From: Verrucomicrobiota bacterium | GTDB taxonomy: Bacteria > Verrucomicrobiota > Verrucomicrobiia > Chthoniobacterales > Chthoniobacteraceae | Length of the DNA: 34,564 nt | Assembly (NCBI GenBank): GCA_014189875.1 | Contig: BJFP01000005.1 | Location: 1 to 34,564 of the forward strand | Reading direction: 5' to 3' | In this document: piece by piece, positions 6,624-26,378 of the stretch | How the letters are laid out: the number at the start of each line of letters is the position of its first letter | Numbering within the stretch: the first letter of the stretch is position 1 | Notes under the pieces: model-generated | Told to the model about the DNA's origin: nothing | Seen by the model: only the letters and a program-made list of their open reading frames with translations | Databases searched by the model: none | Made by a program: the position numbers and the translations under genes

Positions 6624-7469
6624 CTACGATTTCAAATCGCGCCGGAGAAAGACCGCGCAGCCGATGAGGATGAACGTCACGTTCAGTCCGAAAAGGTACA
6701 GGTAGTCCTCGGCCATTTTCCACACCGGCATGGGGCTGCGGAACACATTCAACCACGTCACCATGTGGCTCGTCATGAACCACGGCTTGAACGACGCAAA
6801 CTGCGGCCAGAAATCCAGGATGCGATCCACGAAGAGAACCGCGAGGCAGACGATCGTCGCCGACGCAGGCTTCATGTTGCAGCACGACAGCATGAACGCG
6901 AGCGACACGATCGTGCAGAAGCTGAGGCCAAAGCACGGCATCGCCGCAAAGTATCGGATGAGACCTTCGCGCGGCGGATAGAACGCGAGCAACTTCTCCT
7001 CGGGAATGACCGCACACAGACTGCCAAGCCCCTGCCATGCTAGGCCCGTGAGCAGCGCGGTGATGCCGATGAAAATGATCAGCACAAAGCAGTACAGCAG
7101 CGACGCGAGCAGCTTCACGCCGAGCACACGCAGGCGGCTCACGGGCCGGCAGAGCGTCATCCGCATGGTCCCGTCCTCCACCTCCTTGCTCACGATGTCC
7201 CCCGCGACGAGCGCGACAAAAATCGCACCGAGCAGCGCGACCGTGAGCGCCATCATATTGAACGCCAGCGTGAGCCCGCCGAAATATTCGTCGAACATCG
7301 CGCCGTGGCTTTCGAGGAAAGTACGGAAACCGCGCTTCGCCTTGTCCGTCTGCGAGAGCATGAGCACGAGCAACTCCAGTGCGACGAACGCAACAAAGCC
7401 GATCCACGTGCGCTTGCGCGCAAACATCTTCAACAGCTCTGCAAAAAACTGGCGGAGGAAAAGTCTCAT
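6624..7469 (-). CDS. ABC-2 type transporter permease
   Basis: A 281-residue membrane protein with six hydrophobic segments. An amphipathic start (MRLFLRQFFAELLKMFARKR) leads into the first helix. A cytoplasmic loop contains SKEVEDGTMRMTLCRPVSR; the 'E.e.GT....l..PvsR' form is characteristic of ABC-2 permeases, where it contacts the ATPase. Its ATG overlaps the TGA of the upstream ATPase gene as ATGA, so the two are very likely translationally coupled and form one exporter. The longer reading frame upstream to 7655 is only a shadow of the ATPase gene. Substrate unknown. Being fourth in an operon with a pseudopilin suggests a role in envelope assembly or export, but this is only context. Confidence 0.88.
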   Translation of the reverse strand: MRLFLRQFFAELLKMFARKRTWIGFVAFVALELLVLMLSQTDKAKRGFRTFLESHGAMFDEYFGGLTLAFNMMALTVALLGAIFVALVAGDIVSKEVEDGTMRMTLCRPVSRLRVLGVKLLASLLYCFVLIIFIGITALLTGLAWQGLGSLCAVIPEEKLLAFYPPREGLIRYFAAMPCFGLSFCTIVSLAFMLSCCNMKPASATIVCLAVLFVDRILDFWPQFASFKPWFMTSHMVTWLNVFRSPMPVWKMAEDYLYLFGLNVTFILIGCAVFLRRDLKS

Positions 7470-8350
7470 GGTTTCTGCACCTCGCGCAGGTAGAGCTGCT
7501 CCAGCGTCTGTTTCTCCGGCGTGACGGCGCGCACTTTCACGCCCGCCTGCACAAGCCGCGCGACGACATCCGCGATGTCCGCGCCGGCCGGCAGCTCGAT
7601 CACACCCGGCTCCACAACCGACGCACCGTTCAACTGCGCGCCCACTTTTCCCCACGGCTCCGCCTCGATGCGGAAGCGCGCGCCCTTCGATGCAAGATCC
7701 TGCCAGTGGCCGCAGTAGATGAGGCTGCCCTTGTTCAAAATCGCCACGCGATCGCAGAGCTGCTCGACCTCGCTCAGTAGGTGAGAACAGAAGAGCACCG
7801 TGAAGCCGCGCTCGCGGTTCAGCCGCTGGATGAGTGCGCGCATCTCCGCGATGCCCTCGGGATCGAGGCCGTTCGTCGGCTCATCAAGCAGCACGACCTC
7901 CGGCTCCGGCAGCAGCGCCTGCGCGAGCCCAAGCCGCTGGCGCATGCCCTGGCTGTAGGTGCCGACCTTGTCGTGAATGCGCGCGGTGAGGCCGACAAAT
8001 TCCACTGCGTCCCGCATTTCCTTGCGCGGCACGAGCGCGCTGTAGCTCGTGAAAATTTCCAGATTCCTCCATCCGCTCAGGTATTCGTAAAAACGCGGCG
8101 CCTCAAAAATCGCGCCGACCTTCGCAAGCGCACGCGGACGCTCGCGCTGCACGCTGATGCCGCCGACGAACGCCTCGCCCTCATCGGGAAAAACCATGCC
8201 GAGCAGGATGCCGAGCGCCGTGCTTTTCCCCGCGCCGTTGTGCCCGAGAAGGCCGAAGATTTCCCCGCGCTCCACGGCAAACGACAGCCCGTGCAGCGCC
8301 GGCTTCCCGGCGAAACTCTTTTTCAAATTCGCGAGCCGGATCGCTTCCAT
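7466..8350 (-). CDS. ABC transporter ATP-binding protein (ABC-2 exporter type)
   Basis: A 294-residue ATPase with all hallmark motifs: Walker A GHNGAGKST (36-44), the signature region YSQGMRQRLGLAQAL (132-146; QGMRQR replaces LSGGQ, as is common in this subfamily), Walker B VVLLDEPTNGLDP (152-164), and the H-loop FCSHLLSE (187-194). The C-terminal domain of about 90 residues is typical of CcmA/NatA-like exporters. Its ATG shares one base with the TGA of the pseudopilin gene (TGATG), and its own TGA overlaps the permease ATG by four bases. This ATPase should power the adjacent permease. The cargo is not identifiable from sequence. Confidence 0.95.
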   Translation of the reverse strand: MEAIRLANLKKSFAGKPALHGLSFAVERGEIFGLLGHNGAGKSTALGILLGMVFPDEGEAFVGGISVQRERPRALAKVGAIFEAPRFYEYLSGWRNLEIFTSYSALVPRKEMRDAVEFVGLTARIHDKVGTYSQGMRQRLGLAQALLPEPEVVLLDEPTNGLDPEGIAEMRALIQRLNRERGFTVLFCSHLLSEVEQLCDRVAILNKGSLIYCGHWQDLASKGARFRIEAEPWGKVGAQLNGASVVEPGVIELPAGADIADVVARLVQAGVKVRAVTPEKQTLEQLYLREVQKP

Positions 8351-8922
8351 CAGTTCTTCGGCGGCGTGTCGCTCAGGAACGTCAGCTCCTGCGACACATG
8401 CCCGTCAGCGTAGAGGACGTTCAGCTTGTTCTGGAGGTGCTCGTGGAAGCCCTCCTTGTCACCCATCATCATCGTGTGGCCCGGCTCATCAATCGGGCTA
8501 GTCGCCACGAAGCTCACACTCAGCGAGACGAGGCGCTGACCGTTGAGTTTCCAATTCCACAGGTAGCTCGTGCCGCTCACCTCGGCGATGTGCTTCCGAT
8601 CATCCGGGCAGGCAAAGACGCGCTGCTCGCCGACGTAGGACGCCAGCGCCGTGTCAATGGTCAGCGCCGCATCGCTGCGTGTCGCGCGAGCCATCGCAAG
8701 CTCGGGATAAATGCCCTCGTGGTCGGCAACATAGCGCGACATCGCCCCGCCGAGGGCGCGGAGATTCTGCGTGCAAGCCGCCGAACGCGCATCCCGCTGC
8801 GAACGCTGCCAGCCGACGCTGCCGAGCGTCGCAAGCAGTGCGATGATCGCGAGGACGGCGAGCAGCTCAATAAGCGTGAAGGCGCGGACGCCATCGGCAG
8901 ATGTGCGCATCAACGCGACCAT
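8350..8922 (-). CDS. Prepilin-type (pseudopilin) protein
   Basis: A 190-residue protein with a class III signal: after a short basic leader, FTLIELLAVLAIIALLATL (from residue 15) forms the prepilin N-methylation/cleavage motif and the membrane helix. Glu at mature position 5 is present. The residue before the cleavage site is Ala rather than the usual Gly, which may slow processing. The C-terminal half ends with NVLYADGHVSQEL, resembling the H-X9-DG segment common in PVC pseudopilins. Two starts are possible. ATG 8922 has GGAG 11 bases upstream. ATG 8910 would make a TGATG overlap with the upstream gene, matching the next junction; the mature protein is the same. It sits inside an operon with an ABC exporter rather than with secretion genes. 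Confidence 0.9.
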   Translation of the reverse strand: MVALMRTSADGVRAFTLIELLAVLAIIALLATLGSVGWQRSQRDARSAACTQNLRALGGAMSRYVADHEGIYPELAMARATRSDAALTIDTALASYVGEQRVFACPDDRKHIAEVSGTSYLWNWKLNGQRLVSLSVSFVATSPIDEPGHTMMMGDKEGFHEHLQNKLNVLYADGHVSQELTFLSDTPPKN

Positions 8923-9470
8923 TTTACGGTTTGCTCCAGCGCCTCCAAGAATGGCAGCGCGTCCATTTTCGCATCAATCGTCGCGTCGCTGTAAAATGAC
9001 TTCAGCCCCTGGTCTATGATCTTCCGGAACGCCGGATCATTCGCGTCGCGCCGCTCCCGGTCGCCGCCGTGCTCGCGAAGATCGTCCACCGCCTTCTGCA
9101 CCATCTTCCTGCGTTTGCCCGGCTCCATCTTGTTGAAGCTTTCCATCATCTGCTTGAACCCCGACGGCAGCACGCGATCGAGATAGCGCCCCTTTTCCTC
9201 CGCGGTGAGCGCAAGCCAGAATTTTTCGAGCTTCCGCTGCTTGTCCATCTCGCGGCGCTGTTCGTATTCGAGGCTGTTCACCCGCTTCGCGACCTCCTCG
9301 ATCAGCTTCGCGCGATCCGCGGGCGCCTTGCCCTCAAGTGTGTTTGCGCCGACGAATTCCGCAATGCGCTCGGGCGTCGCGCGGTTCTTCCGCACGATCC
9401 AGATCGCGCCCCCGATCACGCCCCACAGGAGGGCGAGCAGCAGGGCGGTTTTGGTCCAATACGGGCGCAT
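8910..9470 (-). CDS. Hypothetical single-helix membrane-anchored protein
   Basis: I do not recognise this family. From ATG 9470 (GAAGG just upstream on the minus strand) the product is 186 residues. A single hydrophobic helix lies near the N terminus (ALLLALLWGVIGGAIWIV), followed by a charged, mainly helical extracytoplasmic part rich in Glu, Lys and Arg with long amphipathic stretches (for example KLIEEVAKRVNSLEYEQRRE). There are no cysteines and no catalytic motif I can name. A longer ORF begins at 9512, but the added residues look unstructured and the SD favours 9470. It is first of four overlapping genes with the pseudopilin and the ABC exporter, so it may be an accessory or adaptor part of that system (inference). 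Confidence 0.75.
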   Translation of the reverse strand: MRPYWTKTALLLALLWGVIGGAIWIVRKNRATPERIAEFVGANTLEGKAPADRAKLIEEVAKRVNSLEYEQRREMDKQRKLEKFWLALTAEEKGRYLDRVLPSGFKQMMESFNKMEPGKRRKMVQKAVDDLREHGGDRERRDANDPAFRKIIDQGLKSFYSDATIDAKMDALPFLEALEQTVKWSR

Positions 9471-9546
9471 CCGGCCTTCATAAACGCGAATACCGGCGCA
9501 CTCAACCATCATGCACTGCCACAGAAAAAATCAGCGCGCCCAAGTC

Positions 9547-9562
9547 TGGCACGGTCGCTGCT
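9547..9562 (+). promoter_or_regulatory. Sigma-54-like -24/-12 promoter
   Basis: TGGCACG at 9547-9553, four spacer bases, then CTGCT at 9558-9562. This matches the sigma-54 consensus TGGCACG-N4-TTGCW except for one base, with the required 10 bases between GG and GC. A start of transcription would fall near 9573. There is no plus-strand gene downstream, only the terminator at 9637-9665. Confidence 0.4.
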
Positions 9563-9572
9563 ATTTCCAAAT

Positions 9573-9665
9573 GTGCAGAGCACGGAAGCCACGAAATTAA
9601 CAAACCATATTTCTCCAGAGTTCCAGTAGCCTCCGCAACGCGACCTTCGGGTCGCGTTCTTTTTT
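9573..9665 (+). ncRNA. Candidate small RNA between promoter-like site and terminator
   Basis: An inferred transcript of about 93 bases from the predicted start of the sigma-54-like site to the end of the T-run of a strong hairpin. The only plus-strand reading frame is a 9-codon one starting at ATG 9571, so a non-coding RNA is more likely than an mRNA. It lies between two minus-strand operons, downstream of the sulfatase stop codon and upstream of the operon at 8910-9470. No homology is claimed; the call rests only on promoter plus terminator. Confidence 0.3.
9637..9665 (+). terminator. Rho-independent terminator, UUCG tetraloop
   Basis: A perfect 9-bp stem: AACGCGACC (9637-9645), loop TTCG (9646-9649), GGTCGCGTT (9650-9658), then CTTTTTT. 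The T-run is on the plus strand only, so it stops plus-strand transcription, although neighbouring genes on both sides are on the minus strand. It may still act as a 3' end structure for the sulfatase mRNA. Confidence 0.8.
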
Positions 9666-9704
9666 CCGGGAACAGGCGGCGGCGATGCGAGGCCGGGGCT
9701 GCCG

Positions 9705-11114
9705 CTACTTGTAAGGCACCGTTCCATTCGCATCCACCGTGTACTTCCATTTCGCGACGTATTCCGCGGCGGGGCGGAAATCATCGTGCTGCGCGGCGAG
9801 TTTTTCCTTCAGCATCGCATCCATGCGCGCCTGCAATTCCGCGTGCTCCGGTTTGCCGATGAGGTTGTCGAGCTGCCACGGATCCTTCTCGTTGTCGAAA
9901 AGCAGCCACGGCCCTTCGAGTTCGCGGACGTAGGTGAAGCGCACGGTGCGGATGCAGCGGTATTCCCTTCCTCCGACGCGCCGCGTGAATTCACCGAACG
10001 GCGCATCACACTGCACGATGGCCGCGCCGCCGGACGGATCCTTTCCGCCGCGCATGTGGCCGGTAAAGTCGAAACCCTCGACGGTCTTCGGAATCGCGAC
10101 TCCGCACAGGCCGAGCAGCGTAGGCATCACGTCCTCCGAGTTGATCGTCCCCTCGGTGCGATGAGGGGCGATGCCGAGCTTCGCGGGCACGCGGAACAGC
10201 ATCGGCACGCGCGCGGATTCCTCATAGGGCTTCTGCTTCCGCTGCATCGCGTGCGACGAAAGCATGTCGCCGTGATCGGACGTGAAGACGATGATCGTGT
10301 TGTCGTCCACCCCCACGCTTTTCAACGTGCCAAGAAGGTCGCCGATGCAGTCATCGAGCGCCGTACAGTGCGCGTAGTAGCCCGCGAGATCCACACGGGC
10401 ACGCGCCTGTGCGATACCGTTGTCGGGCACATTGCCGCGCAGCTTCATGGCTTCGGGCGAATACATGTCGCGGTATTTTTGCGGCGCGGTCTCGTAGGGA
10501 TTGTGCGGCGGGCCCCACGCGAGCCAGAGCAGGAAGGGCTTCCCCGTTTTCGCGCGCGACTCGATGTAGCCCTGCGCGTCGCGCGTCTGCGCGATGGCGT
10601 CGTAGCCCTGCCATTCCAGCTTCTCCGGGCCGTCGGCGTAGTACGGCGACTGGTTGTAGGCATGCGTGCATTCGAGCACCTTCCAGTAGTCAAATCCCTG
10701 CCGCCGCTCGCGCGGAATGAAGGCCGAGCGTCCGCGGCCATCCACATGCCATTTGCCAATGCACCCGGTGTCGTAACCCGCACCCTTGAGCACCTTCGCG
10801 ATCGTCACAGCCTCGGGATTCAGTTGCACGTCATTCAGAAAAATCCCGTGCGTGAGCGGACGCTGCCCGGTGAGCAGCGAAGCGCGCGTGGGCGAACACA
10901 CGGGCATGCCCGAGACGGCCTGCGTGAAATTCACACACTCCTTTTCCAGCCGGTCGAGGTTCGGCGTCTTCACATTCGGATCGCCCGCGAACCCGAACGC
11001 CTGAGCACGCCACTGGTCGGCTATGATCATGAGGACGTTCGGCGGACGATCCGCGGCGGTCGCAGTCGCGCTGCCCGCGACGAAAAGCGCGAGCGCGGTG
11101 AAAGTGCGGAGCAT
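9705..11114 (-). CDS. Type I sulfatase (secreted)
   Basis: A 469-residue sulfatase with a signal peptide (hydrophobic stretch, then ATAAD). The active-site motif CSPTRASLLTG (Cys73-Ser-Pro-Thr-Arg77) provides the cysteine that is converted to formylglycine. NVLMIIADQW (about 26-35) and FTSDHGD supply calcium-ligand aspartates, and GKWHVDGRG matches the second sulfatase signature region. It should cleave sulfate esters from a sulfated polysaccharide or small ester in the periplasm or outside; the substrate class cannot be set by eye. The start chosen is ATG 11114 because GGAG lies 8 bases upstream. A GTG at 11123 would overlap the previous stop but has no spaced SD. It sits 5 bases after the other sulfatase gene, so they form one operon. 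The maturase is not in the window. Confidence 0.93.
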   Translation of the reverse strand: MLRTFTALALFVAGSATATAADRPPNVLMIIADQWRAQAFGFAGDPNVKTPNLDRLEKECVNFTQAVSGMPVCSPTRASLLTGQRPLTHGIFLNDVQLNPEAVTIAKVLKGAGYDTGCIGKWHVDGRGRSAFIPRERRQGFDYWKVLECTHAYNQSPYYADGPEKLEWQGYDAIAQTRDAQGYIESRAKTGKPFLLWLAWGPPHNPYETAPQKYRDMYSPEAMKLRGNVPDNGIAQARARVDLAGYYAHCTALDDCIGDLLGTLKSVGVDDNTIIVFTSDHGDMLSSHAMQRKQKPYEESARVPMLFRVPAKLGIAPHRTEGTINSEDVMPTLLGLCGVAIPKTVEGFDFTGHMRGGKDPSGGAAIVQCDAPFGEFTRRVGGREYRCIRTVRFTYVRELEGPWLLFDNEKDPWQLDNLIGKPEHAELQARMDAMLKEKLAAQHDDFRPAAEYVAKWKYTVDANGTVPYK

Positions 11115-11119
11115 CGCTT

Positions 11120-12790
11120 TCACTCCGCAGCCTCCGCCTTATTCTTTTTCTTCCCATTCGGTTTCTCGCCCGCATCGGGCGGCAGATCCTGCATCGCGAG
11201 CGCGCGGAATTCCTCCGTGTGCTTCGTCCACACTGCGGCCATTTCTTTCACGCGCTCGGACTGCTTCGCCGCGAGGTTTTTCGCCTCCGCGCGATCGGTC
11301 GTGAGGTCGTAGAGTTCCCACGGGCTGTCGGCCCCGGCGGCCACGATTTTCCAGTCACCCACTCGCAAAGCGCGATTTTTCTCGTGCATCCACCACAGGT
11401 AATCGTGCGTCACCGCGCCGTCCTTCGCGAACGCGGGCACGAGGCTCTTGCCCGGTGCGGGCGGCACGGGCTTGCCGTCCACGCTCTCGGCGCGCTTGCC
11501 GCCGGCGATGTCGAGCACCGTCGGCACGATATCAATCAAGTGTGCGGGATTGTGCCGCAGTTCGCCACGCGCGGCGATGCCCTTCGGCCATTGCACGATG
11601 AACGAGGTCGCGATGCCGCCCTCGTGGACCCACGTCTTGTGTCGTCGGAAAGGCGTGTTCGACGCGCTTGAAAATCCCGGCCCGAGGCACAGGAAGCTAT
11701 CCGCCGATCCGGGGACTGCGCCCGGCGCGTTGCCGCCGCCACGCACCATGATCTCCGCGCTCGCACCATTGTCGGAGAGGAAAATCACGAGCGTGTTTTC
11801 CGCTGCGCCCATCGCTTTGATCTGCGCGAGCACGCGGCCGATTTCCTGATCCATCCGATCCACCATCGCCGCGTGGATCGCCATTTTCTCCGCTTGGAAC
11901 TCCCGCTGCACCGTCGTGAGTTCCGTCCACGGCAACGGGCGGTCCACTTCGCCGGGATGGATCTTCGTGACGTCGCCCTTGAACGGATACGGCGGGCCGA
12001 CCTCGCGCTCGATGGCCGACAGCGTCGTGTTCACAAGGCCCGCCTTTTTCTGCCTCGCGAATCGATCCTCGCGCGCGACCTCCCAGCCCTTGAGATACTT
12101 GTCCTTGTAGCGCGCAATGTCCTCCGGAGGCGCCTGCAACGGAAAGTGCGGCACGGTGAACGCGAGATACGAAAAGAACGGCTGCGTGGAAAATTTCTCC
12201 GCGTGCTCCTTTAGACATTTGATCGCGTGATCCGCATACGCCGTCGAGGTGTAGTAGCCGTCGCCGAGCTTCACGGGCGGGAGCGGCTTGTCATCCTCGC
12301 TGTGGTTGCTCACGGAGAAATTGTGGTTGTGATCATCCACGACATACGAGTGGTCGAAGCCGTTCTCCGTCGGCTTCCCGTCCACATGCCATTTGCCCGA
12401 CTGATACGAGCGGTAGCCGAGCGGCTTCAGCATCGTCGAGAGAAGCGGCGCCCACGCGGGACGCTCGCCCCGCGCACCGCCCGGCCCGCCGGGAAACGCA
12501 TCGCGCCGCACCGCCTGCGCGTAGTAGCCCGTGAGGATCGCAGCGCGCGAAGGCCAGCAGCGCGCGGTGTTGTAAAATTGCGTGAAGCGAAGTCCGTTCG
12601 CCGCGAGCGAATCGAGGTTCGGCGTGCGCACGTCGCCGCCGTAGCAGCCCGCATCGGAATAGCCCATGTCGTCCGCGAGGATGAGCAGGACGTTTGGTTT
12701 CGCCGGGCCCGCCGCGCGCAGCGATGCGGACGAAAACGCGAGAACGACGAGCAGGAGGAGGAACGAAATGGGGCGTTTCATTCCGCGCAT
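11120..12790 (-). CDS. Type I sulfatase, arylsulfatase-like (secreted)
   Basis: A 556-residue secreted sulfatase. The signal peptide ends near SLRAAG. NVLLILADDMGYSD (33-46) gives the calcium-binding Asp pair. The modification motif is CWPSRAAILTG (Cys78-Trp-Pro-Ser-Arg82), a C-X-P-X-R form that yields formylglycine. GKWHVDGKP and FLSDNGAS complete the fold. The tail after the last domain is Lys-rich (NGKKKNKAEAAE). ATG 12790 is preferred over ATG 12781 because GGGAG lies 8 bases before it; the reading frame upstream to 12976 overlaps the divergent gene region and is not needed. It is first in the operon with the second sulfatase. The two have different active-site contexts (CWPSR and CSPTR), so they probably act on different bonds of one substrate (inference). 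Confidence 0.93.
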   Translation of the reverse strand: MRGMKRPISFLLLLVVLAFSSASLRAAGPAKPNVLLILADDMGYSDAGCYGGDVRTPNLDSLAANGLRFTQFYNTARCWPSRAAILTGYYAQAVRRDAFPGGPGGARGERPAWAPLLSTMLKPLGYRSYQSGKWHVDGKPTENGFDHSYVVDDHNHNFSVSNHSEDDKPLPPVKLGDGYYTSTAYADHAIKCLKEHAEKFSTQPFFSYLAFTVPHFPLQAPPEDIARYKDKYLKGWEVAREDRFARQKKAGLVNTTLSAIEREVGPPYPFKGDVTKIHPGEVDRPLPWTELTTVQREFQAEKMAIHAAMVDRMDQEIGRVLAQIKAMGAAENTLVIFLSDNGASAEIMVRGGGNAPGAVPGSADSFLCLGPGFSSASNTPFRRHKTWVHEGGIATSFIVQWPKGIAARGELRHNPAHLIDIVPTVLDIAGGKRAESVDGKPVPPAPGKSLVPAFAKDGAVTHDYLWWMHEKNRALRVGDWKIVAAGADSPWELYDLTTDRAEAKNLAAKQSERVKEMAAVWTKHTEEFRALAMQDLPPDAGEKPNGKKKNKAEAAE

Positions 12791-12890
12791 AAAAACCGCT
12801 CCCAATGCGCTTGTCCCGCAAGAAACTGAGTGCCGCCAGACGCACGCGCTTCTCATGCCGGACCGCACGCGATACAAAAGCGAATCCCCG

Positions 12891-13253
12891 ATGAATCGCG
12901 ATTTTGAATCCATCTTCGCCAGCCTGCGCGAGATCCTGCGCAGGCATTCCAAAAATCTCACAGTCACGGAAGACACGCCGACCCGCTACACGCTGAACGG
13001 CGGCAAGCATCCGACGCACAAGACGCCGGTGGACATCGCGTGGATCCACATCGGGAAAAACTACGTGAGCTTCCATCACATGGGCGTCTATGGCTGCGAA
13101 AGACTGCGCGAGAGCCTGTCGCCCGCGTTGAAGGCGCGGATGCAGGGCGAGTCGTGCTTCAACTTCAAGAAGCCCGATGAAGCGCTCTTCAAGGAACTCG
13201 ATCAAATGACCGTGCACGGCTTCGCCGCATTTCGAAAAGCCGGGCATCTCTGA
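12891..13253 (+). CDS. Small DUF1801/YdhG-like protein
   Basis: A 120-residue soluble protein, divergent from the sulfatase operon. Its middle and end read IAWIHIGKNYVSFHHMGVYG and GESCFNFKKPDEALFKELDQ. This resembles the DUF1801/YdhG fold (a 'ki.yvsfh' strand, then 'gk.c..f' and a C-terminal helix), a family of unclear function. The match is by eye and moderate. The start may be ATG 12891 or ATG 12855 (12 residues longer); neither has a clear SD. The dihydrouridine synthase gene follows 87 bases downstream. Confidence 0.65.
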   Translation: MNRDFESIFASLREILRRHSKNLTVTEDTPTRYTLNGGKHPTHKTPVDIAWIHIGKNYVSFHHMGVYGCERLRESLSPALKARMQGESCFNFKKPDEALFKELDQMTVHGFAAFRKAGHL

Positions 13254-13340
13254 CCGCCGCGCACCTCTCAGCGCATCGAGAACCGCGCAGTTGTCTTGCC
13301 CGCGCTCGCACATTTCCAAACCCGCGCTACGCTGCACGCC

Positions 13341-14369
13341 ATGCTTCCGTGGTTCCAAGACCGATTCCCGCTTTACCTCGCACCGATGGCGGGGATCACG
13401 GACACGACTTTCCGTCAGCTTTGCAAAGGCTACGGCGCAGATGTGATGGTTTCGGAGTTTGTCTCCTCCGAGGGGATTTTCCGGAAAAATGAGCGCACGA
13501 TGGAGTATCTCGACTTCGAGGAATCGGAACGCCCGCTCGGCATCCAGCTCTTCGGCGGCGACCCGGAGCATCTCGCAGAAGCTGCGAAGATCGTCCTCGA
13601 CTGGAAGCGGCCCGATTTTCTCGACATCAATTTCGGCTGCCCGGTGAACAAGGTCGTGAGCAAGAACGGCGGCTCCTCGATCCTGCGCGACTGCCCACTG
13701 CTCGCGCGCATCGCGGGTGCGATCGTGAAGGCCGTCACACCGCATCCCGTCACCGCGAAGATCCGCATCGGCTGGAGCGCCGACACGATCAATGCGACCA
13801 CGACCGCGCGCATCCTCGAAGACTGCGGCATCCAGGCCGTCGCCGTCCACGGTCGCACGAAGGAGCAGGGCTACAGCGGCGAGGCGGACTGGAACGTGAT
13901 CGCGCAGGTCGCCGAGGCCGTGCGCATCCCGGTGATCGGCAATGGCGACATCGTCACCGCCCACGATGTCGAGCACCGGAAAAGCACGACGCGCATCGCA
14001 GGCATCATGATCGGCCGCACCGCGATGCAGCACCCGTGGGTCTTCCGCGAGATCCGACATTACATCGACACCGGCACACACCTCGCACCGCCATCGCTCG
14101 CGGAAATCTGGGCACACATCCGCCGCCATTGCGCCATGGAAATCGCGCGCCAAAAATTGCAACCGCGCGGTCTCGAAGCTCCCGGAACGGCAGAACTCCA
14201 CGCGATGCAATCCATGCGCACACAGCTCATGTCCTACTCGCGCGGAATGTCCGGCGCACGGCAACTGCGGGAAAAATTCGCACACGTCGCCTCGCTCGCA
14301 CAGCTCGACGACATCGCCGCGGAAAACATCGCGCAGCATCCGTCGGACTCGCACCTCGCCGCGGCTTAA
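13341..14369 (+). CDS. tRNA-dihydrouridine synthase
   Basis: A 342-residue FMN-dependent Dus enzyme that reduces uridines in the tRNA D-loop. The N-terminal TIM barrel starts with LYLAPMAGITDTTFRQL. The catalytic Cys100 lies in DINFGCPVNKV. FMN/tRNA-binding motifs are VHGRTKEQGYSGEADW, IGNGDI and IMIGRTAMQHPWVF, and a helical C-terminal domain follows. It is closest to the DusB-type branch by eye, so no exact symbol is given. ATG 13341 begins just before the first strand; a TTG at 13296 would add 15 residues without support. Its stop is followed by the CTCAG hairpin element and it is convergent with the kinase gene. Confidence 0.92.
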   Translation: MLPWFQDRFPLYLAPMAGITDTTFRQLCKGYGADVMVSEFVSSEGIFRKNERTMEYLDFEESERPLGIQLFGGDPEHLAEAAKIVLDWKRPDFLDINFGCPVNKVVSKNGGSSILRDCPLLARIAGAIVKAVTPHPVTAKIRIGWSADTINATTTARILEDCGIQAVAVHGRTKEQGYSGEADWNVIAQVAEAVRIPVIGNGDIVTAHDVEHRKSTTRIAGIMIGRTAMQHPWVFREIRHYIDTGTHLAPPSLAEIWAHIRRHCAMEIARQKLQPRGLEAPGTAELHAMQSMRTQLMSYSRGMSGARQLREKFAHVASLAQLDDIAAENIAQHPSDSHLAAA

Positions 14370-14393: not shown

Positions 14394-14553
14394 TGCGCCT
14401 GGCGGAATCTCCGTGATGGCTCAGTTTGAGTTCTCAGTGCTCAGTTCTCAGTGCTCAGTAGCCGGACAGTTTCAATCTGAAAACTGAGCACTGAGCACTG
14501 AGAACTTTTCCAGTCAGACAGCACTGCGGCCAAATTGCGCCTGGCGGAATCTC
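14394..14553. mobile_element. Small hairpin insertion bounded by an 18-bp direct repeat
   Basis: The 18-mer TGCGCCTGGCGGAATCTC occurs at 14394-14411 and again at 14536-14553, with 124 bases between them that contain the CTCAG inverted repeat. The right copy codes for RFRQA at the end of the minus-strand kinase gene. If the insert and one copy are removed, that gene reads on in frame past the left copy (adding SKGSFPAR) to a TAA at 14366-14368. This is what an insertion with target duplication would leave. No transposase is present, so it would be a non-autonomous element. Confidence 0.5.
14431..14506. repeat. Inverted CTCAG heptamer repeat
   Basis: The left arm (14431-14458) has four tandem heptamers alternating TTCTCAG and TGCTCAG. 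The right arm (14482-14506) has three and a half complementary units (ACTGAGC). About 24 bp can pair with one mismatch. TTTT follows the right arm. It lies between the convergent dihydrouridine synthase and kinase genes, so it may also serve as a terminator in both directions. Confidence 0.9.
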
Positions 14554-15857
14554 GCCAGCGTGGTCCGCAGCCCCGCCATCGTGAAGGGCTTGCTCATCAC
14601 GATGTCCACGCCCTCGGGCTTCTCGCCGGTCGCAGCCATGATGTCGCCGAAGCCCGTCACCAGGATCACCGGCACATTGGGCCGCCGCTGCTTCACCTCG
14701 CGCGCGAGCTCGTCGCCCTCCATCTCGGGCATCGACCGATCCGTCATCACGATGTCGAATTCCCCTCCTTGGAATTTTTCCAGCCCGTCGCGCCCGTTCA
14801 CGGCGGGCGTCACGTCGTAGCCGTCATCGGTCAGGTAGGTCTGTATGACTTCGCGCACGGCCGGGTCATCGTCCACCACGAGCACGCGGCACCGTGGAGG
14901 CGGTGTTGCGGCGGATTCTGCCGATGGAAAAATCACGCGCACCGTGGTGCCGATGCCCTTGCGGCTCCCGATCTCCAGCCTGCCCCGGTGCCGCGCCACC
15001 ACCTCGTGGATCACGGCGTAGCCGCTGGGCCAGCCGTCCGCGCGTTCCGCTGCGGCGCTGGGATCCAGCAGCCGCTGGCGCATCGCCTCGGTGACTCCCA
15101 GCCCGTCATCCTGCACCGTGAGGATCGCATCGTCGCCCTGCTGGTGCGCGCCGATCGTGATCGTGCCGCGGCGAGGGATCGCATTCATCGAATTCCTCAC
15201 CAGATGCGTGAGCATCTCGCGGAGCCGGATCGGATCTCCGTGGATTTTCACAGCGGGCCCCGCCTTCCGCTCAAAGGCCACTTTCGGCACCGCGTCTCCC
15301 GCCGGCTCCCCGCTCCTCGGGCGAAAAAGCTCGGTGACGTGATCCATCAGCGCGTCGAGCGCGACCGTTTGAAACACCTCCTCCGACGGCACGTCAACCG
15401 CCTCCGCGATCGCGGACGCGTCGCCCGGCCCGCGCAGCGCCTTCCGCCCCGCATCCACGGCCAGGATGATCTGCTGGATGTGCTCCGTCACTTTCTCCGG
15501 ATGCGTGATCACCGCCGGCGCGCGCAGGACGACTTCCGAATGCTGCTGGATGCGCTTGAGCGCCTCCTCGATCTCGCGCGTCGCCGATCCCGAGCGCTCC
15601 GCCGCCGCGCGGCTCCGCTGCACGGCGCGCAATTCCGCGAGCGCCACCGTGAGCTGCTGGTTGCTCTTCACGAGCTGCTCCTCCGTCTGCCGCCGCTCCG
15701 CGATTTCGCGCTGGAGCTGGTCATTCACGGATTCCAATTCCGCCGTCCGCTCCTTCACGCGCGCGTCCAGCCCGGCATTGTCCAGCCGCCCGGCCACCTG
15801 CCCGCGCTTGCGCTCGATCGCATACTGGATCGAGCGCAGCAGGAGCTGCATGTCCAC
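14514..15857 (-). CDS. Hybrid histidine kinase-like protein (C-terminal part of a gene split by a stop codon)
   Basis: A 447-residue product with a coiled coil (about 30-90, rich in Glu, Arg and Gln), a degenerate dimerisation region, and a HATPase_c domain with N box HLVRNSMNAI, G1 DDGLGV and G2 GWPSGYAV. It ends in a receiver domain: VLVVDDDP acidic pair, Asp in DIVMTDRSMPEM, Lys in MSKPF. No canonical H-box is visible. Where GIAHDFNN-type kinases carry His, this reads ATREIEEAL, so autophosphorylation is doubtful. Upstream, in the same frame, lies the receiver at 15864-16196. The two are separated only by TAG-GGG-CAT-GTG-GAC before this ATG, so they were probably one gene. The 3' end was apparently rewritten by the hairpin insertion at 14394-14553. 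Confidence 0.8.
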   Translation of the reverse strand: MDMQLLLRSIQYAIERKRGQVAGRLDNAGLDARVKERTAELESVNDQLQREIAERRQTEEQLVKSNQQLTVALAELRAVQRSRAAAERSGSATREIEEALKRIQQHSEVVLRAPAVITHPEKVTEHIQQIILAVDAGRKALRGPGDASAIAEAVDVPSEEVFQTVALDALMDHVTELFRPRSGEPAGDAVPKVAFERKAGPAVKIHGDPIRLREMLTHLVRNSMNAIPRRGTITIGAHQQGDDAILTVQDDGLGVTEAMRQRLLDPSAAAERADGWPSGYAVIHEVVARHRGRLEIGSRKGIGTTVRVIFPSAESAATPPPRCRVLVVDDDPAVREVIQTYLTDDGYDVTPAVNGRDGLEKFQGGEFDIVMTDRSMPEMEGDELAREVKQRRPNVPVILVTGFGDIMAATGEKPEGVDIVMSKPFTMAGLRTTLARFRQAQFGRSAV

Positions 15858-15863
15858 ATGCCC

Positions 15864-16196
15864 CTACACGAGGTAATCCTGCGCGCCCTTCTGCACCAGC
15901 TCGATGGCCGCCGTCACATCCGAGACGCCGCTCAGGATCACGATCGGCACATCCGGCGCGGCTTCATTCATCCGGTGAAAGGTCGAGACTCCGGCGCTGT
16001 CCGGCAGCGTCAGATCCAGCAGCACGATGTCCCGCCCGCCCCCGGCCGTCATGCGGATTCCCTCGGCGAGCGTCGCCGCGGCCGCCACGGTGAACAAGGG
16101 ATACTCGGAACCACCAAGAAGGCGCCCGAGCAATTCGGAGTGCTCCAGATTATCCTCGACGAGGAGAACCCGGATCGGACGGTCGGTGATGGGCAT
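15864..16196 (-). CDS. Truncated response regulator receiver domain (N-terminal part of a split gene)
   Basis: A 110-residue receiver domain: IRVLLVEDNLEHSELL (acidic pair), Asp in DIVLLDLTLPDS, Ser in VILSGVSD, ending GAQDYLV followed by TAG at 15866-15864. In this receiver class the next residues are Lys-Gly, so the amber codon sits exactly on the conserved active-site lysine (AAG to TAG is one substitution). The frame then continues into the coiled-coil kinase at 15857 with a typical linker (QLLLRSIQYAIERKRG). As it stands, the product lacks the lysine and the last strand and helix, and would be non-functional unless the stop is read through. The ATG at 16196 precedes the first strand; a longer ORF start at 16259 adds an unrelated tail. 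Confidence 0.75.
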   Translation of the reverse strand: MPITDRPIRVLLVEDNLEHSELLGRLLGGSEYPLFTVAAAATLAEGIRMTAGGGRDIVLLDLTLPDSAGVSTFHRMNEAAPDVPIVILSGVSDVTAAIELVQKGAQDYLV

Positions 16197-16280
16197 TTTT
16201 GCTTCGGGTGACGGTGAGGGCTGAATCAACGTCCACTGCAAGCGCAGTATTCGCGCCATCCAAGGTGAACCCTTTGTGAA

Positions 16281-17192
16281 TTACAAGCTGGCCGGGGAAG
16301 ATTGATCGGATTTCCCCTCCGACACCTCGGCGCGCGCCGCGCTCAGGCAGCCGCCGATGATGATCACCGTGCCCGTGAGATAGATCCACAGCAGCAGCGC
16401 CACCACGCTGCCGAAGGCGCCGTACACCACGTTGAAATGCGCCACCCGCCCGGCGTAAAAGATGAACAGCTTTTGCAGGCCGCCGAGCGCCGCCGTGACG
16501 AGGAACGCCTCGATCCACACCTCGCGGAACGTCGTCTTCCGCCGCGGCGCAAACTTGTAGAAAAGCGCGAGGCTGTAAAAAAGCAGCAGCGGCGGCAACA
16601 GGTCGCGCATCGTCTTCACGGCCCATCCGCCGATGCCGAAATCGAACGAGAACACATCCGGGTGGGAGCGGTAATATTTTTCCAGCCCGTTCAGGATCGC
16701 CGGCGCGATGAGGCCGATGAGGAGCGCGCTCGCGAGCACCGTCACCATGAGCAGGTTTTTCAGCGGCAGCCGCCACCAGCTCAGCTCATGCGTGCCCCAC
16801 GCATTGTTCACCGCGCGGACCAGCGAATGGAAGAAACGCAGCGAGCACCACGTGAGGATTGCAAACGAGATCAGCCCCGAACCGAGCCGCGACTGCATGA
16901 AGCTCTGCACCGTCGCGCGCACCGTCTCCGCGCTCCCGAGATCCACGATGTACTGCGAGAGCAGTTCAAAAATCTGCGTCGTCGCCTGCTCCCGGTTCCC
17001 GAGGAATCGCGTGCCCGCCGTGATCAGCAGCACGAGCAGCGGCAGCAGCGAAAACAGCGCGTAGTACGCAAACGACGCCGCGTACTGTTCGCCATCCGTC
17101 TCCACGTACTTCACCCCCGTCCGCCAGACCGTCGCCCACACGCGCCCCATGCGGCGTCGGTGCGGACTTGGTGATGCGGGAATTTCAGACAT
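16281..17192 (-). CDS. YihY/BrkB-family inner-membrane protein
   Basis: A 303-residue protein with about six membrane helices. The family's N-terminal signature is clear: AASFAYYALFSLLPLLVLLI, followed by the FFHSLVRAVNNAWG segment and the late GAFGSVVALLLWIYLTGTVI helix. Members are called YihY/BrkB; they are widespread inner-membrane proteins of uncertain function (the old RNase BN assignment was wrong). The ends are polar and Ser/Pro-rich. The gene lies upstream of the split receiver/kinase gene on the same strand, with 84 bases between its stop and the receiver start, and downstream of the word-repeat element at 17246-17338. Confidence 0.9.
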   Translation of the reverse strand: MSEIPASPSPHRRRMGRVWATVWRTGVKYVETDGEQYAASFAYYALFSLLPLLVLLITAGTRFLGNREQATTQIFELLSQYIVDLGSAETVRATVQSFMQSRLGSGLISFAILTWCSLRFFHSLVRAVNNAWGTHELSWWRLPLKNLLMVTVLASALLIGLIAPAILNGLEKYYRSHPDVFSFDFGIGGWAVKTMRDLLPPLLLFYSLALFYKFAPRRKTTFREVWIEAFLVTAALGGLQKLFIFYAGRVAHFNVVYGAFGSVVALLLWIYLTGTVIIIGGCLSAARAEVSEGKSDQSSPASL

Positions 17193-17245
17193 CGCTGCGC
17201 CGATTCAAAACGAAACCGCGCACCGACGCGAAGCACATTTTAACT

Positions 17246-17338
17246 CGGAACGCGGAACGCGGAAAAAAGAAGCGGTTCCACGTTTGTCGCCAGCCTTTCC
17301 GCGTTCCGCCTTCCGCGCTCCGCCTTCCGCGTTCCGCG
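17246..17338. repeat. Inverted GGAACGC / TTCCGCG heptamer repeat
   Basis: The left arm (17246-17265) is CGGAACG words. The right arm (17297-17338) is six tandem heptamers: TTCCGCG, TTCCGCC, TTCCGCG, CTCCGCC, TTCCGCG, TTCCGCG. The left arm can pair with either end of the right arm. The right arm ends five bases before the stop codon of the gene at 17343-18650, so the array begins almost at that gene's 3' end. It sits between two tandem minus-strand genes. The core AACGC is shared with the 1-131 heptamer (CAACGCC). Confidence 0.9.
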
Positions 17339-17342
17339 TTTC

Positions 17343-18650
17343 CTAGTTCCCCGGCCCTCGCCCGCGCCCGGTGAATCCGCCGCGGCTTGGCGACTGGATG
17401 CGCGCCTTCACCTCGTCGGTCAGCGCACTCTGCGCGATCCATTCCTTCGCCGCCGGCGCGTCCTGCTTCACCCAGGTGCGCACCACGTTTTCCACCGCGC
17501 GCTGCTGCCGCTCCTTGTCCGTGATCGTGTTCGCCCATGCGAGCGCGCCCTTCGGATCTTTCTCCGCGACGGTCGTCGCGTAGCTCTCGCGGCTGCGGTC
17601 GGCCTCGGCGGTCGCGGGCAGCTTCGCCATGAATGCGCCCGCGGCGGCCGCGTCCTTCTTCGCCCACTCGCCGATCGTCTCGGCGAGTGCGCGCGACTTC
17701 GGCTCGCCTTCCGGCAGCGCGAGCGCCCACGAGGCGGCGGACGGCGCGTCCTTCTCGGCAAATTTTCCGGCAAGCTGCGGGATGAGGCCGTCGCGCAACG
17801 AGCCCGCGGCCATGCCGTCAATCGCACTGCGCGCGCCGTCCAGCCCGCGCTGGCCCACGAGCTCCCCCGCGATCGTGTCGAGCGTCCGGCTGCGGCGATC
17901 AAAAGTCTCCGTCGCCGCCAAGCCGATCGCGCGATCCAAGTCTGTGCGTGCGAGCTGCGAGAGCACCATCGAAAGCGGCGAACTGGACGGCCAGCCTCCG
18001 CCAAGGCCGCCCTGCCCGCCCTGCGATTCGTCCTTCTCCTTGCCGGTCGTCTGCGCCCACGCGATCGCTTCGGCGGGATTCGTGCGCGTCCACGTCTGCA
18101 TCACCGCGCTCATGCCGATCCATTTTTCCTCGCGGCCCTTGCTGTTCACAAAGGCGACCGCACCCTTCGCATCGAGCTGCGTCCATTTTTCCAAAATCAT
18201 CGAATACTCCGTGAACCGCGCACCGCGTCCGAAGCCGCGGTCGCCACGGAGGCTGAACGCACCGAGCGCGGTCTTCAGATCCTCCGGGTCCCGCACGGCG
18301 TCGAGCAGCCGCAGCAAGCCGTTCATGCGCACAATGCCGTCCTGCTGCGCCATGAGATTCTTCACCCACTTGTCGAGCGGCTGGCCGTTCGTCAACCGTT
18401 CCACCGTCATCGAGCCGTCGCCCTCACCCATCGCAAACTGCGCGCGCTCTCCCCCCGGCGCGCGCGAAAACTCCGCCGCGCTCCCCGCCGCAGTGCCGCC
18501 GGATTTCCCCGCGGCAGGACGCCCCGCCTCATCGCCCGTCGCGACGGGCGCCGGTGCCGTGCCGATCCTCCCGATGCAAAATGCGATGGCTGCGGTGGCG
18601 AGCCAGCCGATGCCGACGACGAGAGGAAGACGGGATGATGTGGATTTCAT
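17343..18650 (-). CDS. Hypothetical protein with WAxxDPxAA-type helical repeats
   Basis: A 435-residue protein with an N-terminal hydrophobic segment (LPLVVGIGWLATAAIAFCIG; signal anchor or signal peptide), a Gly/Ala-rich linker, then repeats of roughly 35-40 residues with an alternating helix pattern. Examples are KDAPSAASWALALPEGEPKS, KKDAAAAGAFMAKLPATAEA, KDPKGALAWANTITDKERQQ and KQDAPAAKEWIAQSALTDEV. Such repeats are frequent in uncharacterised Verrucomicrobia proteins and suggest an alpha-solenoid for protein contacts in the periplasm. The C terminus is Gly/Arg-rich (GGFTGRGRGPGN). ATG 18650 is chosen because it places the hydrophobic segment at the N terminus. It is divergent from the FmdB-type gene. 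No enzyme motif is seen. Confidence 0.75.
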   Translation of the reverse strand: MKSTSSRLPLVVGIGWLATAAIAFCIGRIGTAPAPVATGDEAGRPAAGKSGGTAAGSAAEFSRAPGGERAQFAMGEGDGSMTVERLTNGQPLDKWVKNLMAQQDGIVRMNGLLRLLDAVRDPEDLKTALGAFSLRGDRGFGRGARFTEYSMILEKWTQLDAKGAVAFVNSKGREEKWIGMSAVMQTWTRTNPAEAIAWAQTTGKEKDESQGGQGGLGGGWPSSSPLSMVLSQLARTDLDRAIGLAATETFDRRSRTLDTIAGELVGQRGLDGARSAIDGMAAGSLRDGLIPQLAGKFAEKDAPSAASWALALPEGEPKSRALAETIGEWAKKDAAAAGAFMAKLPATAEADRSRESYATTVAEKDPKGALAWANTITDKERQQRAVENVVRTWVKQDAPAAKEWIAQSALTDEVKARIQSPSRGGFTGRGRGPGN

Positions 18651-18706
18651 AGGGCGGTGAGTGAAGCGACAGCGGAACAGTGCGCCACACTGCAACCCGC
18701 GCCGCC

Positions 18707-18720
18707 GGGAAAAGTTTCCC
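18707..18720. promoter_or_regulatory. GGGAAA-AG-TTTCCC dyad in divergent promoter region
   Basis: Two perfect 6-base inverted arms with a 2-base centre, in the 127-bp region between the divergent repeat-protein and FmdB-type genes. The size and symmetry suit a dimeric repressor site, but no regulator is linked and it could be chance. Confidence 0.25.
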
Positions 18721-18777
18721 TTCAATCGGAGTATCCGCACGGATGACGCCGGGCCGCGAATCTGCCAGACTTCCCGC

Positions 18778-19023
18778 GTGCCGATCTACGTTTACGAACT
18801 TTGCGAAGGGGAATGCAAAATCTGCGGCGGCAGCTTCGAGCTGCGCCAGCCGCTCGACCGCGAGCCGTGCAAGACATGCCCGCTCTGCCGCAAGCCCGTG
18901 CGCCGCATCATCACCGGCGTGAACTCCCCGAAACTCACGAAGCCCGTCTCCGTCACCGATGCAAAAAAGGCCGGCTTCACGATCTACAAGCGCACCGGCA
19001 AGGGCGAATACGAGCGGCAGTGA
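18778..19023 (+). CDS. FmdB-family zinc-ribbon protein
   Basis: An 81-residue protein starting at GTG 18778 as VPIYVYELCEG, which matches the usual MPIYEYxC opening of FmdB/CxxC regulatory zinc ribbons. Two metal-binding pairs are visible: CKICGG and CPLCRKP, separated by about 20 residues. A basic segment follows (VRRIITG, KKAGFTIYKRTGKGEY). Family members are putative regulators of unknown target. The upstream in-frame ATG at 18661 would add 39 residues unlike the family, so the GTG is preferred even without an SD. Confidence 0.8.
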   Translation: MPIYVYELCEGECKICGGSFELRQPLDREPCKTCPLCRKPVRRIITGVNSPKLTKPVSVTDAKKAGFTIYKRTGKGEYERQ

Positions 19024-19146
19024 AGCGGAGGCCATTCTGATTTGCGCAGGGCTCGGCGCTGCGAACGCCGGCAATTTTCATGAATACGCCACGCAAACAC
19101 GCGTCTGTGATTTGCGCATCCCAAAACCCGGTGCCATCCTCCGCCC

Positions 19147-19683
19147 ATGAAATCCCCGCTCATTGCACTTTTCGCCGCCGTCCTCCTTTTCTCCGGCTGC
19201 GCCACGCAGACGAAGGAGCAGCTCGCCGCCATCCGCTCCGCCGGAGTCTCCCCCGCACTCGTCCGGAAGCTTGAGCGCGGCGGACGCCTCACCCCCGGCG
19301 ACATCATCGAGCTGAAGCGACGCCATGTGAATGACGCCGTCGCGCTGCGCCAGCTCGACCGCACGGGCGTTAATTACATCGTGGACAAGGACATCGTCCG
19401 CCAGCTCCGCAAGGCCGGCGTGAGCGAGGACATCATCACCGCCGCCAAGACCGCGAGCGAAAGGTATGCGGATCAATTCCTCCGGCCGTACGTCTCCGCT
19501 TCGTACAACCAATGGTGGAGCCCCTATCCGTCCCCCTTCCCTTTTTACGATCCGTTTTTCTACGGCTACGCGCAGCCCCTGCAGCGCTGCAATCCCTACA
19601 GGCCCTACCAGTACTATCCGCAGCACCACCGCCGCGGCGCCATGAGTTTTCTGCCGCCCGGCCCGCATCGTCTCTTCCGCTGA
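19147..19683 (+). CDS. Predicted lipoprotein with Tyr/Pro-rich tail
   Basis: A 178-residue protein with a lipoprotein signal peptide (MKSPLIALFAAVLLFSGC; the lipobox Cys is residue 18). The mature N-terminal part (about 20-110) is helical and charged, with two similar helix-turn segments (IRSAGVSPALVRKLERGGRL and VRQLRKAGVSEDIITAAKTA) that look like a short duplicated motif. The C-terminal third is rich in Tyr, Pro, Phe and His. Function unknown; anchored in a membrane facing the periplasm or surface. Starts and ends are clean; no SD is evident. Confidence 0.8.
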   Translation: MKSPLIALFAAVLLFSGCATQTKEQLAAIRSAGVSPALVRKLERGGRLTPGDIIELKRRHVNDAVALRQLDRTGVNYIVDKDIVRQLRKAGVSEDIITAAKTASERYADQFLRPYVSASYNQWWSPYPSPFPFYDPFFYGYAQPLQRCNPYRPYQYYPQHHRRGAMSFLPPGPHRLFR

Positions 19684-19807
19684 ACGGCAGCGGCGGAAAT
19701 ATTTCGCATCCACGCGGACAGGATGCCGCGGTGTGCAGTCGCTGGAATCGCCCTGACATTCCGCGTGCATCGCCTGACGCCACGCGCTCACATGCGCGCT
19801 CCCACGC

Positions 19808-22507
19808 ATGAAACTTCTCACCCCGGCACTCGCACTCGTCATGGCAGCCACCGCATTTTCCGCCGAAGAAAAACCCGTGCAGGTTCCCGGCGTCCCGTTC
19901 GTCCGCAAGGCCGGGCCGATCTCCGAATACCGCCTCGAATCGAACGGCCTCCGCGTCCTGCTCGTGCCGGAAAAATCCGCGCCGGTCGTCACATTCATGG
20001 TGACGTATCACGTCGGCTCGCGGAACGAAGTCACCGGCACCACTGGCGCGACGCACCTGCTCGAGCACCTCATGTTCAAGGGCACGGAAAAATTCGACCG
20101 CAGCAAGGGCACGGGCCTCGACCAGGTGCTGGAGCGCGTCGGCGCGGAGACGAACGCCACGACGTGGCTGGATCGCACGAATTACTTCGCGACCGTGCCC
20201 GCGAACGCGCTGCCGCTGCTCGTGGAGACAGAGGCCGACCGCATGCGCAACCTCGCGCTGCGGGAAGACGACCGCCGCCCCGAGATGGTCGTCGTGCGAA
20301 ATGAATTCGAGCGCGGCGAAAACGATCCGCGCGCCGCACTAGACAAGGAACTGTGGAGCGCGGCGTTCCAGGCGCACCCGTACCACCACGACACGATCGG
20401 CTGGCGCAGCGACATCGAGAAGGTGCCGATCGCGAAGCTCCGCGAATTCTACGACACCTTTTACTGGCCGGACAATGCGACCGCGACCGTCATCGGCGAC
20501 TTCGATCCCGCCGCTGCGCTCGCGGAAATCGCGAAGCACTACGGCGCGATCCCGAAGGCCCCGCACGCGATCCCGCAAATCTACACCGAGGAACCCGCGC
20601 AGACCGGCCCGCGCCGCGTGATGGTAAAGCGCGGCGGCGAACTCGGCGTCGTGGCCATCGCGCACAAGACGCCAGCCGCGACACACGCGGACTGGCCCGC
20701 AGTCCAGGTCTTCAGCGCCATCCTCTCGACGGGCAAGACGTGCCGCTGCTACCGCGCGCTCACGGACAAAAACGTCGCCGTCGAAGTCAGCGGACATCTC
20801 GGCTTCACCCACGATCCCTCGCTGCACATCACCACCGCCGACCTCACGCCCGACACGAAGCACGAAGATGCGGAGCGCAGGCTCATCGCGGAAATCGAGC
20901 GGATGAAAAAGGGCGGGGTGACCGACGCCGAGGTGCGGATGGCGGTAGCGAAGATGCTCGCCGAGCGCGCGTACGCACGCGACGGATCCTTCGCGCAGGC
21001 CGAGCAGCTCAACGAGTGCATCGCCGTCGGCGACTGGACGCTCTACGTGTCGCTGGAGGAAAAGTTCAAGGCCGTCACCGCGGCGGACGTGAAGCGTGTC
21101 GCGAACGCGTACTTCATCGAGAAGCATAGCGTGACCGGCTGGTTCATCCCGTCGAGCGAAGGCGGGGAAGCCCCCGAAAAAAAGCAGGCCGACGAGAAAC
21201 CGAATCTCAAGGAAGTCGTCCCCGCGAAAGCGCCCGACCAAGCACTGCCGCCGCCGGCCGTGACGAACCTTGCGGGCACTGTTGTCCGCGGGAAAGTCGC
21301 CGGCATGGACCTGCTCCTCTGCCGCACCGGCGTGAAGGATGTGGTGACGATGCGCGGCAGCATCGCCGCGGGCGAAAACGCCTCCGCGAATCCCGCGCTC
21401 GCGCACCTCGTGTCGTCCATGATCGAGCGCGGCACGAAGAAGCACGATCAGTTTGCCATCGCCGACATGCTCGAAAAGGCGGGCGTGACCATCGCGTTCA
21501 CGGTGAACGCGGACACGCTCGAATTTGAGGCGAAGCTGCTGCGCGGGGACATCCCGCTCGTGGTGTCGCTGCTCGCGGAGCAGCTTCGCACGCCGGCATT
21601 CGCAGCGACGGAACTGGCGAAGGCGAAGAAGCAGTTCATCGCCGAGGTGCGGCAGTCGCTCGAAGACACCGACGCACAGGCAGCCATCGCATTTTCACAG
21701 GCGATCTGCCCGCCGGGGCATCCGTCGCGCGGTGCGGACATCCCGGAACTGATCGCAGCCACCGGGAAAACAAAGCTCACGGAACTGAGTGCCTTCCATG
21801 CGGCGAATTACGGCCCGGAAGGGATGCACCTCGTCGTGGCCGGCGACATCGATCCCCCGGCATTCAAGGAGGAAGTGATGAAGGCGTTCGCGGGCTGGAA
21901 GGGCGGCGGCATTCCGAAACCTTCCGCAGCTTACTCAAACACGACCGGGGAAAAGATCGTGGAGCTTCCCGACAAGTCGAGCGTGAGCGTGATCATCGGC
22001 CAGCCGAGCGGGCTGCGCGTGAGCGATCCCGACTGGATCCCGGTGAGAATCGGGACGTCCATCCTCGGGGTTGGCTTCACGAGCAGGCTCGTGGGGAATG
22101 TGCGCGACCGCGAGGGACTCACCTACGGCATCGGCGCGTCGCTCGCTGGCGATTCATTCCGCGAAGGCAGATGGTGGACGAAGGCGACCTTCGCACCCGC
22201 GCTCCTCGAACGGGGGCTGGCGAGCACGCGGCGCGAGATCCAGTCGTGGTGGGAAAAGGGCATCACCGCGGACGAACTGGAATATCGCAAGAGCGCCGCC
22301 GCCGGGCGGCTGGCCGTCTCACTGGAGACGACACACGGCCTGGCCGAGCAGCTCCTCCGCTGCGCGGAGAACGGACTCGAACTGACGTGGCTGGATGAGT
22401 TCCCCGCCAAGGTCCGCGCGCTCACGCTCGCCGAAGTGAATGCCGCGGTGAAGAAGCACCTCGATCCGGCAAAGATGATCACCGTGAAGGCGGGCACGCT
22501 GAAGTAG
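19808..22507 (+). CDS. M16 zinc metallopeptidase, two-unit fusion, secreted
   Basis: An 899-residue protein with a signal peptide ending near AFSAEE. The first M16 unit holds the inverted zinc motif HLLEH (83-87), with a further zinc-ligand Glu in NEFERGEND (Glu166). The second unit starts near residue 490 and lacks HxxEH (the equivalent stretch reads AHLVSSMIERGT), as expected for an M16 inactive partner domain. It retains the DREGLTYGIGASL region (Arg/Tyr pair) late in the protein, which helps bind substrate. Active and inactive halves joined in one chain close into a peptide-degrading chamber, as in pitrilysin. Likely role: periplasmic peptide or targeting-peptide turnover. It is convergent with the HupE/UreJ-type gene, with 8 bases between stops. 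Confidence 0.93.
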   Translation: MKLLTPALALVMAATAFSAEEKPVQVPGVPFVRKAGPISEYRLESNGLRVLLVPEKSAPVVTFMVTYHVGSRNEVTGTTGATHLLEHLMFKGTEKFDRSKGTGLDQVLERVGAETNATTWLDRTNYFATVPANALPLLVETEADRMRNLALREDDRRPEMVVVRNEFERGENDPRAALDKELWSAAFQAHPYHHDTIGWRSDIEKVPIAKLREFYDTFYWPDNATATVIGDFDPAAALAEIAKHYGAIPKAPHAIPQIYTEEPAQTGPRRVMVKRGGELGVVAIAHKTPAATHADWPAVQVFSAILSTGKTCRCYRALTDKNVAVEVSGHLGFTHDPSLHITTADLTPDTKHEDAERRLIAEIERMKKGGVTDAEVRMAVAKMLAERAYARDGSFAQAEQLNECIAVGDWTLYVSLEEKFKAVTAADVKRVANAYFIEKHSVTGWFIPSSEGGEAPEKKQADEKPNLKEVVPAKAPDQALPPPAVTNLAGTVVRGKVAGMDLLLCRTGVKDVVTMRGSIAAGENASANPALAHLVSSMIERGTKKHDQFAIADMLEKAGVTIAFTVNADTLEFEAKLLRGDIPLVVSLLAEQLRTPAFAATELAKAKKQFIAEVRQSLEDTDAQAAIAFSQAICPPGHPSRGADIPELIAATGKTKLTELSAFHAANYGPEGMHLVVAGDIDPPAFKEEVMKAFAGWKGGGIPKPSAAYSNTTGEKIVELPDKSSVSVIIGQPSGLRVSDPDWIPVRIGTSILGVGFTSRLVGNVRDREGLTYGIGASLAGDSFREGRWWTKATFAPALLERGLASTRREIQSWWEKGITADELEYRKSAAAGRLAVSLETTHGLAEQLLRCAENGLELTWLDEFPAKVRALTLAEVNAAVKKHLDPAKMITVKAGTLK

Positions 22508-26375: not shown

Positions 26376-26378
26376 GTG

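Follow-up and report, generated by a model that had tools for sequence, protein, structure and literature searches.

A palindromic heptamer repeat at the stop codon of a histidine kinase gene in a Verrucomicrobia genome

In the window (the whole stretch of 34,564 nt of DNA that was analysed), a strong hairpin between a dihydrouridine synthase gene (dus) and a convergent histidine kinase gene is bordered on each side by an exact copy of the 18-mer TGCGCCTGGCGGAATCTC. The reading that we prefer, to which we give a probability of about one half, is that the hairpin is a non-autonomous palindromic repeat lying at the kinase stop codon, and that the junction between element and gene was duplicated locally during insertion or rearrangement. 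The window belongs to a draft MAG (G000) of a freshwater Verrucomicrobia, which comprises 4.93 Mb in 746 contigs with 6% contamination.

Anatomy of the hairpin and its flanking repeat

The 124 bp between the two 18-mer copies hold inverted arms of 30 nt that are 90% complementary (Table 1), and the 159-nt stretch folds at -71.9 kcal/mol (z = -5.7), far better than shuffled sequence. An Rfam search of the window returned nothing. Words like the left end of the element recur in the C23, C64 and C200 copies of the hairpin, at one end or at both; they stand at both ends in C64, C23 and the window copy, and are one-sided or decayed in most others.

Table 1. Features of the hairpin site and the two adjoining genes, in window coordinates
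Feature	Position	Strand	Remarks
Dihydrouridine synthase gene (Dus)	13296..14369	+	PF01207, E 1e-79; orthologue on G004:C120
Left 18-mer copy (derived copy)	14394..14411	+	24 bp past dus stop
Element left end GTGATGGCTCAGTTTG	14413..14428	+	inverted partner of right end in best-kept copies
Left arm	14429..14458	+	heptamer repeats CTCAGTK
Loop	14459..14476	+	type common to many family members, either orientation
Right arm	14477..14506	+	heptamer repeats ACTGAGC
Element right tail (..GACAGCACTGCGGCCAAATTGCGCC)	14507..14541	+	similar tail in about 8 copies
Right 18-mer copy	14536..14553	+	element end (TGCGCC) and kinase 3' end (TGGCGGAATCTC)
Histidine kinase / response regulator frame	14514..15857	-	PF02518 and PF00072; orthologue on G004:C26

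The first-pass annotation had reported the 18-mer on both sides of the hairpin, and the two copies are indeed identical. They are the only exact occurrences in the whole assembly, and 0.09 matches would be expected in shuffled sequence even allowing three mismatches. As a null distribution we used the mismatched left and right flanks of 46 copies of the hairpin, and the 18-bp match of the window copy falls outside it (longest shared word 14 in 2070 pairs). No comparable flanking repeat was found at the other 45 of the 46 copies, which were at background level apart from one 12-bp case (C290); this argues that the 18 bp are not a target duplication characteristic of the family.

The 18-mer is composite. 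The kinase part of the right copy aligns with CTAGCGGAACTTC of G004 and CTAGCGGAATTTC of G003, the two close relatives, so it is in the right copy that the kinase part has its original place. Some 6-8 bp of the 18-mer (TGCGCC) match the element's own end in other copies: the GGCGCA that adjoins the kinase end recurs terminally in the C17 and C200 copies, and therefore most likely belongs to the element, and 12 bp of the 18-mer, CCAAATTGCGCC, are common to the C17 copy. The left copy is separated from the element end by a single base (C), and has no counterpart downstream of dus in G004 or G003. Since both parts recur in it, a simple target duplication presupposes that the terminal bases of the element were already in the target; with only 6 bp of element end in the 18-mer, the target may by chance have contained TGCGCC.

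A lost stop codon and a new gene neighbourhood

In both relatives the kinase ends in FR-TAG (GCTGGCGAAGTTCCGC-TAG in G004, GCTGGGGAAATTCCGC-TAG in G003). At the same position the G000 gene reads GCTGGCGAGATTCCGC-CAG-GCGCAATTTGG, so that the stop is lost; the tail that follows lies mostly in the element, and the last codons and the stop of the frame lie in the element tail. It had been calculated that, without the insert and one 18-mer copy, the kinase frame would read RFRQAQSKGSFPAR to a TAA opposite the dus stop, and the resulting longer end, SKGSFPAR, had been taken for the pre-insertion gene. The codon arithmetic is correct, but the relatives' stop after FR means that the longer end is not ancestral. 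Further upstream in the gene, on the minus strand at 15857-15870, an in-frame TAG separates the kinase part from the receiver domain (15864-16259) where G003 has a sense codon; the gene may be split or decaying, or the TAG may be a base error.

Synteny with G004, in a comparison that covered about 1.56 Mb, breaks exactly at the element, window positions 172-14362 corresponding to C120 and positions 14537-28775 to C26. In G003, dus lies on C764 and the kinase on C491. The kinase of both relatives faces a gene that we name from its sequence as a sugar kinase, with no hairpin between them and with dus on another contig; the orthologue of this sugar kinase in G000 is at C45. Downstream of dus, G003 has a different gene, whose G000 counterpart is at C344. 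With dus and the kinase on separate contigs in both relatives, the dus/kinase neighbourhood is new, and the junction would be either derived in G000 or an error of assembly. The empty site that had been proposed as a check, with dus and the kinase as flanks, was not found in G004 or G003, where the kinase lacks the hairpin and is flanked by the sugar kinase, not by dus. What counts against a local duplication is that the dus/kinase neighbourhood occurs in no relative, so that the steps at this site are reconstructed, not observed.

An artefact, in which the draft assembly joined dus and kinase contigs through the repeated hairpin and the junction does not exist in the organism, would fit the separation of the two genes in relatives that were assembled separately. 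It would also fit the heptamer words of about 30 nt that are common to family copies, and two contig pairs in the MAG (C201/C366 and C48/C52) that hold variants of one site near contig ends. However, the copies are only about 75-87% alike and so lack long exact words across the whole element, and a mis-join alone would not create an exact 18-bp repeat that occurs nowhere else. We consider such an artefact improbable.

Two further ideas were rejected. Of 12 elements that could be tested between G000 and G004, 9 fell at breaks in synteny, against 36 of 83 other intergenic gaps; enrichment at breakpoints is not supported by these counts, as the G004 regions were partly chosen from element matches and the elements of G003 stand mostly in intact context. 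Reciprocal recombination between two hairpins was discarded because the other broken ends (G000:C45 and C344) carry no such hairpin.

A dispersed family of heptamer hairpins

The hairpin is a dispersed element. Searching G000 gave 102 matches from about 40 places, with a few extra copies in further contigs, and we put the family at roughly 40-50 copies, a count that rests on searches. The arms are built from heptamer repeats (CTCAGTK / ACTGAGM), and about eight copies share a tail whose reverse complement reads GGCKCARTTTGGTCGGAGTGC. On each strand of G000 a strict hairpin pattern matched 44 times, counting overlaps; G003 gave a single match, and the 38 further genomes of the host family that were searched gave none. 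Being almost confined to G000, the strict form seems to have expanded recently, although G003, G004, G001, G008 and G031 have looser copies. The copies on C201 and C366 have identical flanks and differ by one heptamer gained or lost on each arm, which is consistent with copying between arms. Among the top matches in the openly licensed literature, we found no description of the heptamer hairpin.

One site is present in L016 and L086 (G000:C48 and C52) and in L246 (G031:C189); the C48 loop is apparently reversed and its tail is missing. The flanks match a genome from another genus at about 90% identity, and these contigs may represent contamination or transferred DNA. The window itself contains other repeats: a CAACGCC heptamer array (1-131), a CCAACGC / TTGGGCG hairpin followed by six T (1427-1534), a second heptamer hairpin with the unit GGAACGC / TTCCGCG that G004 and G003 lack at the orthologous site (17242-17340), and an octamer hairpin of CGCAGAGG with 42-nt arms that are 76% complementary (26787-26883).

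Comparison of orthologous sites revealed several that are hairpin-free in one genome (G003:C107 versus G000:C3, G003:C723 versus G004:C91, G003:C765 versus G004:C52, and G000:C43 versus G003:C675 and G004:C86). Sites without the hairpin in sister species indicate that family members have been gained or lost, which makes arrival of the window hairpin by insertion plausible. To this extent the first-pass annotation holds; its use of the 18-bp repeat as direct evidence of insertion is not supported, given that the other copies have no comparable repeat and that TGCGCC matches the element end. The hairpin-free comparisons gave no clear target duplication, and the flanks had diverged in several of them.

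Some copies are read as part of proteins. In G003, in-frame copies occur in a GcpE/IspG (ispG-type) gene, whose G000 counterpart is hairpin-free, and in a tRNA synthetase (leuS-like) gene, whose G004 counterpart is hairpin-free. An in-frame copy in an AcrB-type (ACR_tran) gene is common to G003 and G000, with conserved arms and a diverged loop, and PSCyt1-PSCyt2 proteins read the hairpin in frame in both genomes. These copies bear on the idea that the hairpin serves chiefly to terminate transcription in both directions and is retained for this between convergent genes, its mobility being incidental. The position of the window copy between dus and the kinase, and the A-rich left and T-rich right edges of many copies, would suit such a role. 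Family members that lie within coding sequence would not, and a terminator scan, whose limit of 3-8 nt on the loop excludes this hairpin, was negative here; we regard the terminator explanation as very improbable.

In our preferred reading, the element would be a non-autonomous palindromic repeat of about 130 bp, with heptamer arms, a shared loop type and the ends GTGATGGCTCAGTTTG / CAAACTGAGCC, that multiplied in this species and came to lie at the kinase stop codon. Its right end would replace or overlap the stop, lengthening the reading frame by about nine codons, most of them in the element. The 18-mer on the left would be a secondary copy of the element/kinase junction, comprising about 10-12 bp of kinase and 6-8 bp of element end. 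We infer the order of events as well as a local origin of this copy, for which strand switching or slippage at the hairpin is the most likely cause, either as the element inserted or as the dus and kinase blocks were brought together by rearrangement.

The other reading of the repeat is a true 18-bp target-site duplication, in which TGCGCCTGGCGGAATCTC at the kinase end was the target of insertion, whether the dus block arrived earlier or later. Such an event would explain why the exact repeat lies directly at both sides, far outside the null, with one base between the left copy and the element, and it agrees with the presence/absence variation of other family sites between species. We nevertheless think it rather unlikely, as the other 45 copies have no repeat of such length, the hairpin-free sites of other members are without clear duplication, 6-8 bp of the repeat resemble element sequence, and the longer kinase end is absent from the relatives.

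Comparison with known repeat systems

The palindromic elements RPE and WPE of Rickettsia and Wolbachia are likewise short and lie in frame within genes, a likeness drawn from behaviour; WPE-like repeats are reported to stand in frame without stops in addA, addB and priA (PMC4224334). Palindromes in frame within protein-coding genes are found in the present family, but not at the window copy. Unlike RPE and WPE, the arms here are heptamer repeats, and the elements are hosted by an uncultured Verrucomicrobia species that is no endosymbiont.

Like MITEs, the hairpins are short, carry no gene and vary in presence between species; the best-kept copies also have what may be inverted terminal repeats. 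Unlike MITEs, they show no target-site duplication of constant length, the 18 bp being confined to the window copy. No transposase was matched to the family, PF01797 being the one transposase family searched. A separate, CTAG-associated MITE-like element in G000 has the same heptamer core (C43:5412, C46 and C290). The CTAG element (L079 1370-1600, L026 and L093) has the ends CTAGTG..TGATGGC / GCCATCA..CACTAG, and at its C43 site G004 has a hairpin-free sequence that contains CTAG.

REPs and REPINs likewise reach many hairpin copies per genome, and among Verrucomicrobia O. terrae is known to have REPs of the GTAG type (PMC3733652). All 10 genomes of the G000 genus contain Y1 transposases (PF01797). 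A RAYT flanked by the repeat was not found in G000, where no heptamer hairpin lies close to the strong RAYT loci (L253-L260); a hairpin does occur at L261, a locus with a marginal PF01797 match. The TAACTGA repeats of Beggiatoaceae and others are intergenic tandem 7-base units with many sets per genome (PMC4679880). Those units repeat directly and lie for the most part immediately before start codons, whereas the present hairpin is a palindrome of two facing arrays.

It is conceivable, if improbable, that these hairpins are selfish palindromes specific to Verrucomicrobia, with heptamer arrays copied from arm to arm, that enter important genes in frame as well as intergenic sequence and, at their landing sites, provoke junction duplications and chromosome rearrangements. 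Rickettsia and Wolbachia are the best-known hosts of palindromic repeats that insert into genes in frame. Palindromes built from heptamers and amplified in one uncultured Verrucomicrobia lineage would offer another system for studying how repeats spread, and the hairpin-free sites of the sister species add to its usefulness. The window also carries a caution, that long repeats on both sides of an element need not come from target duplication.
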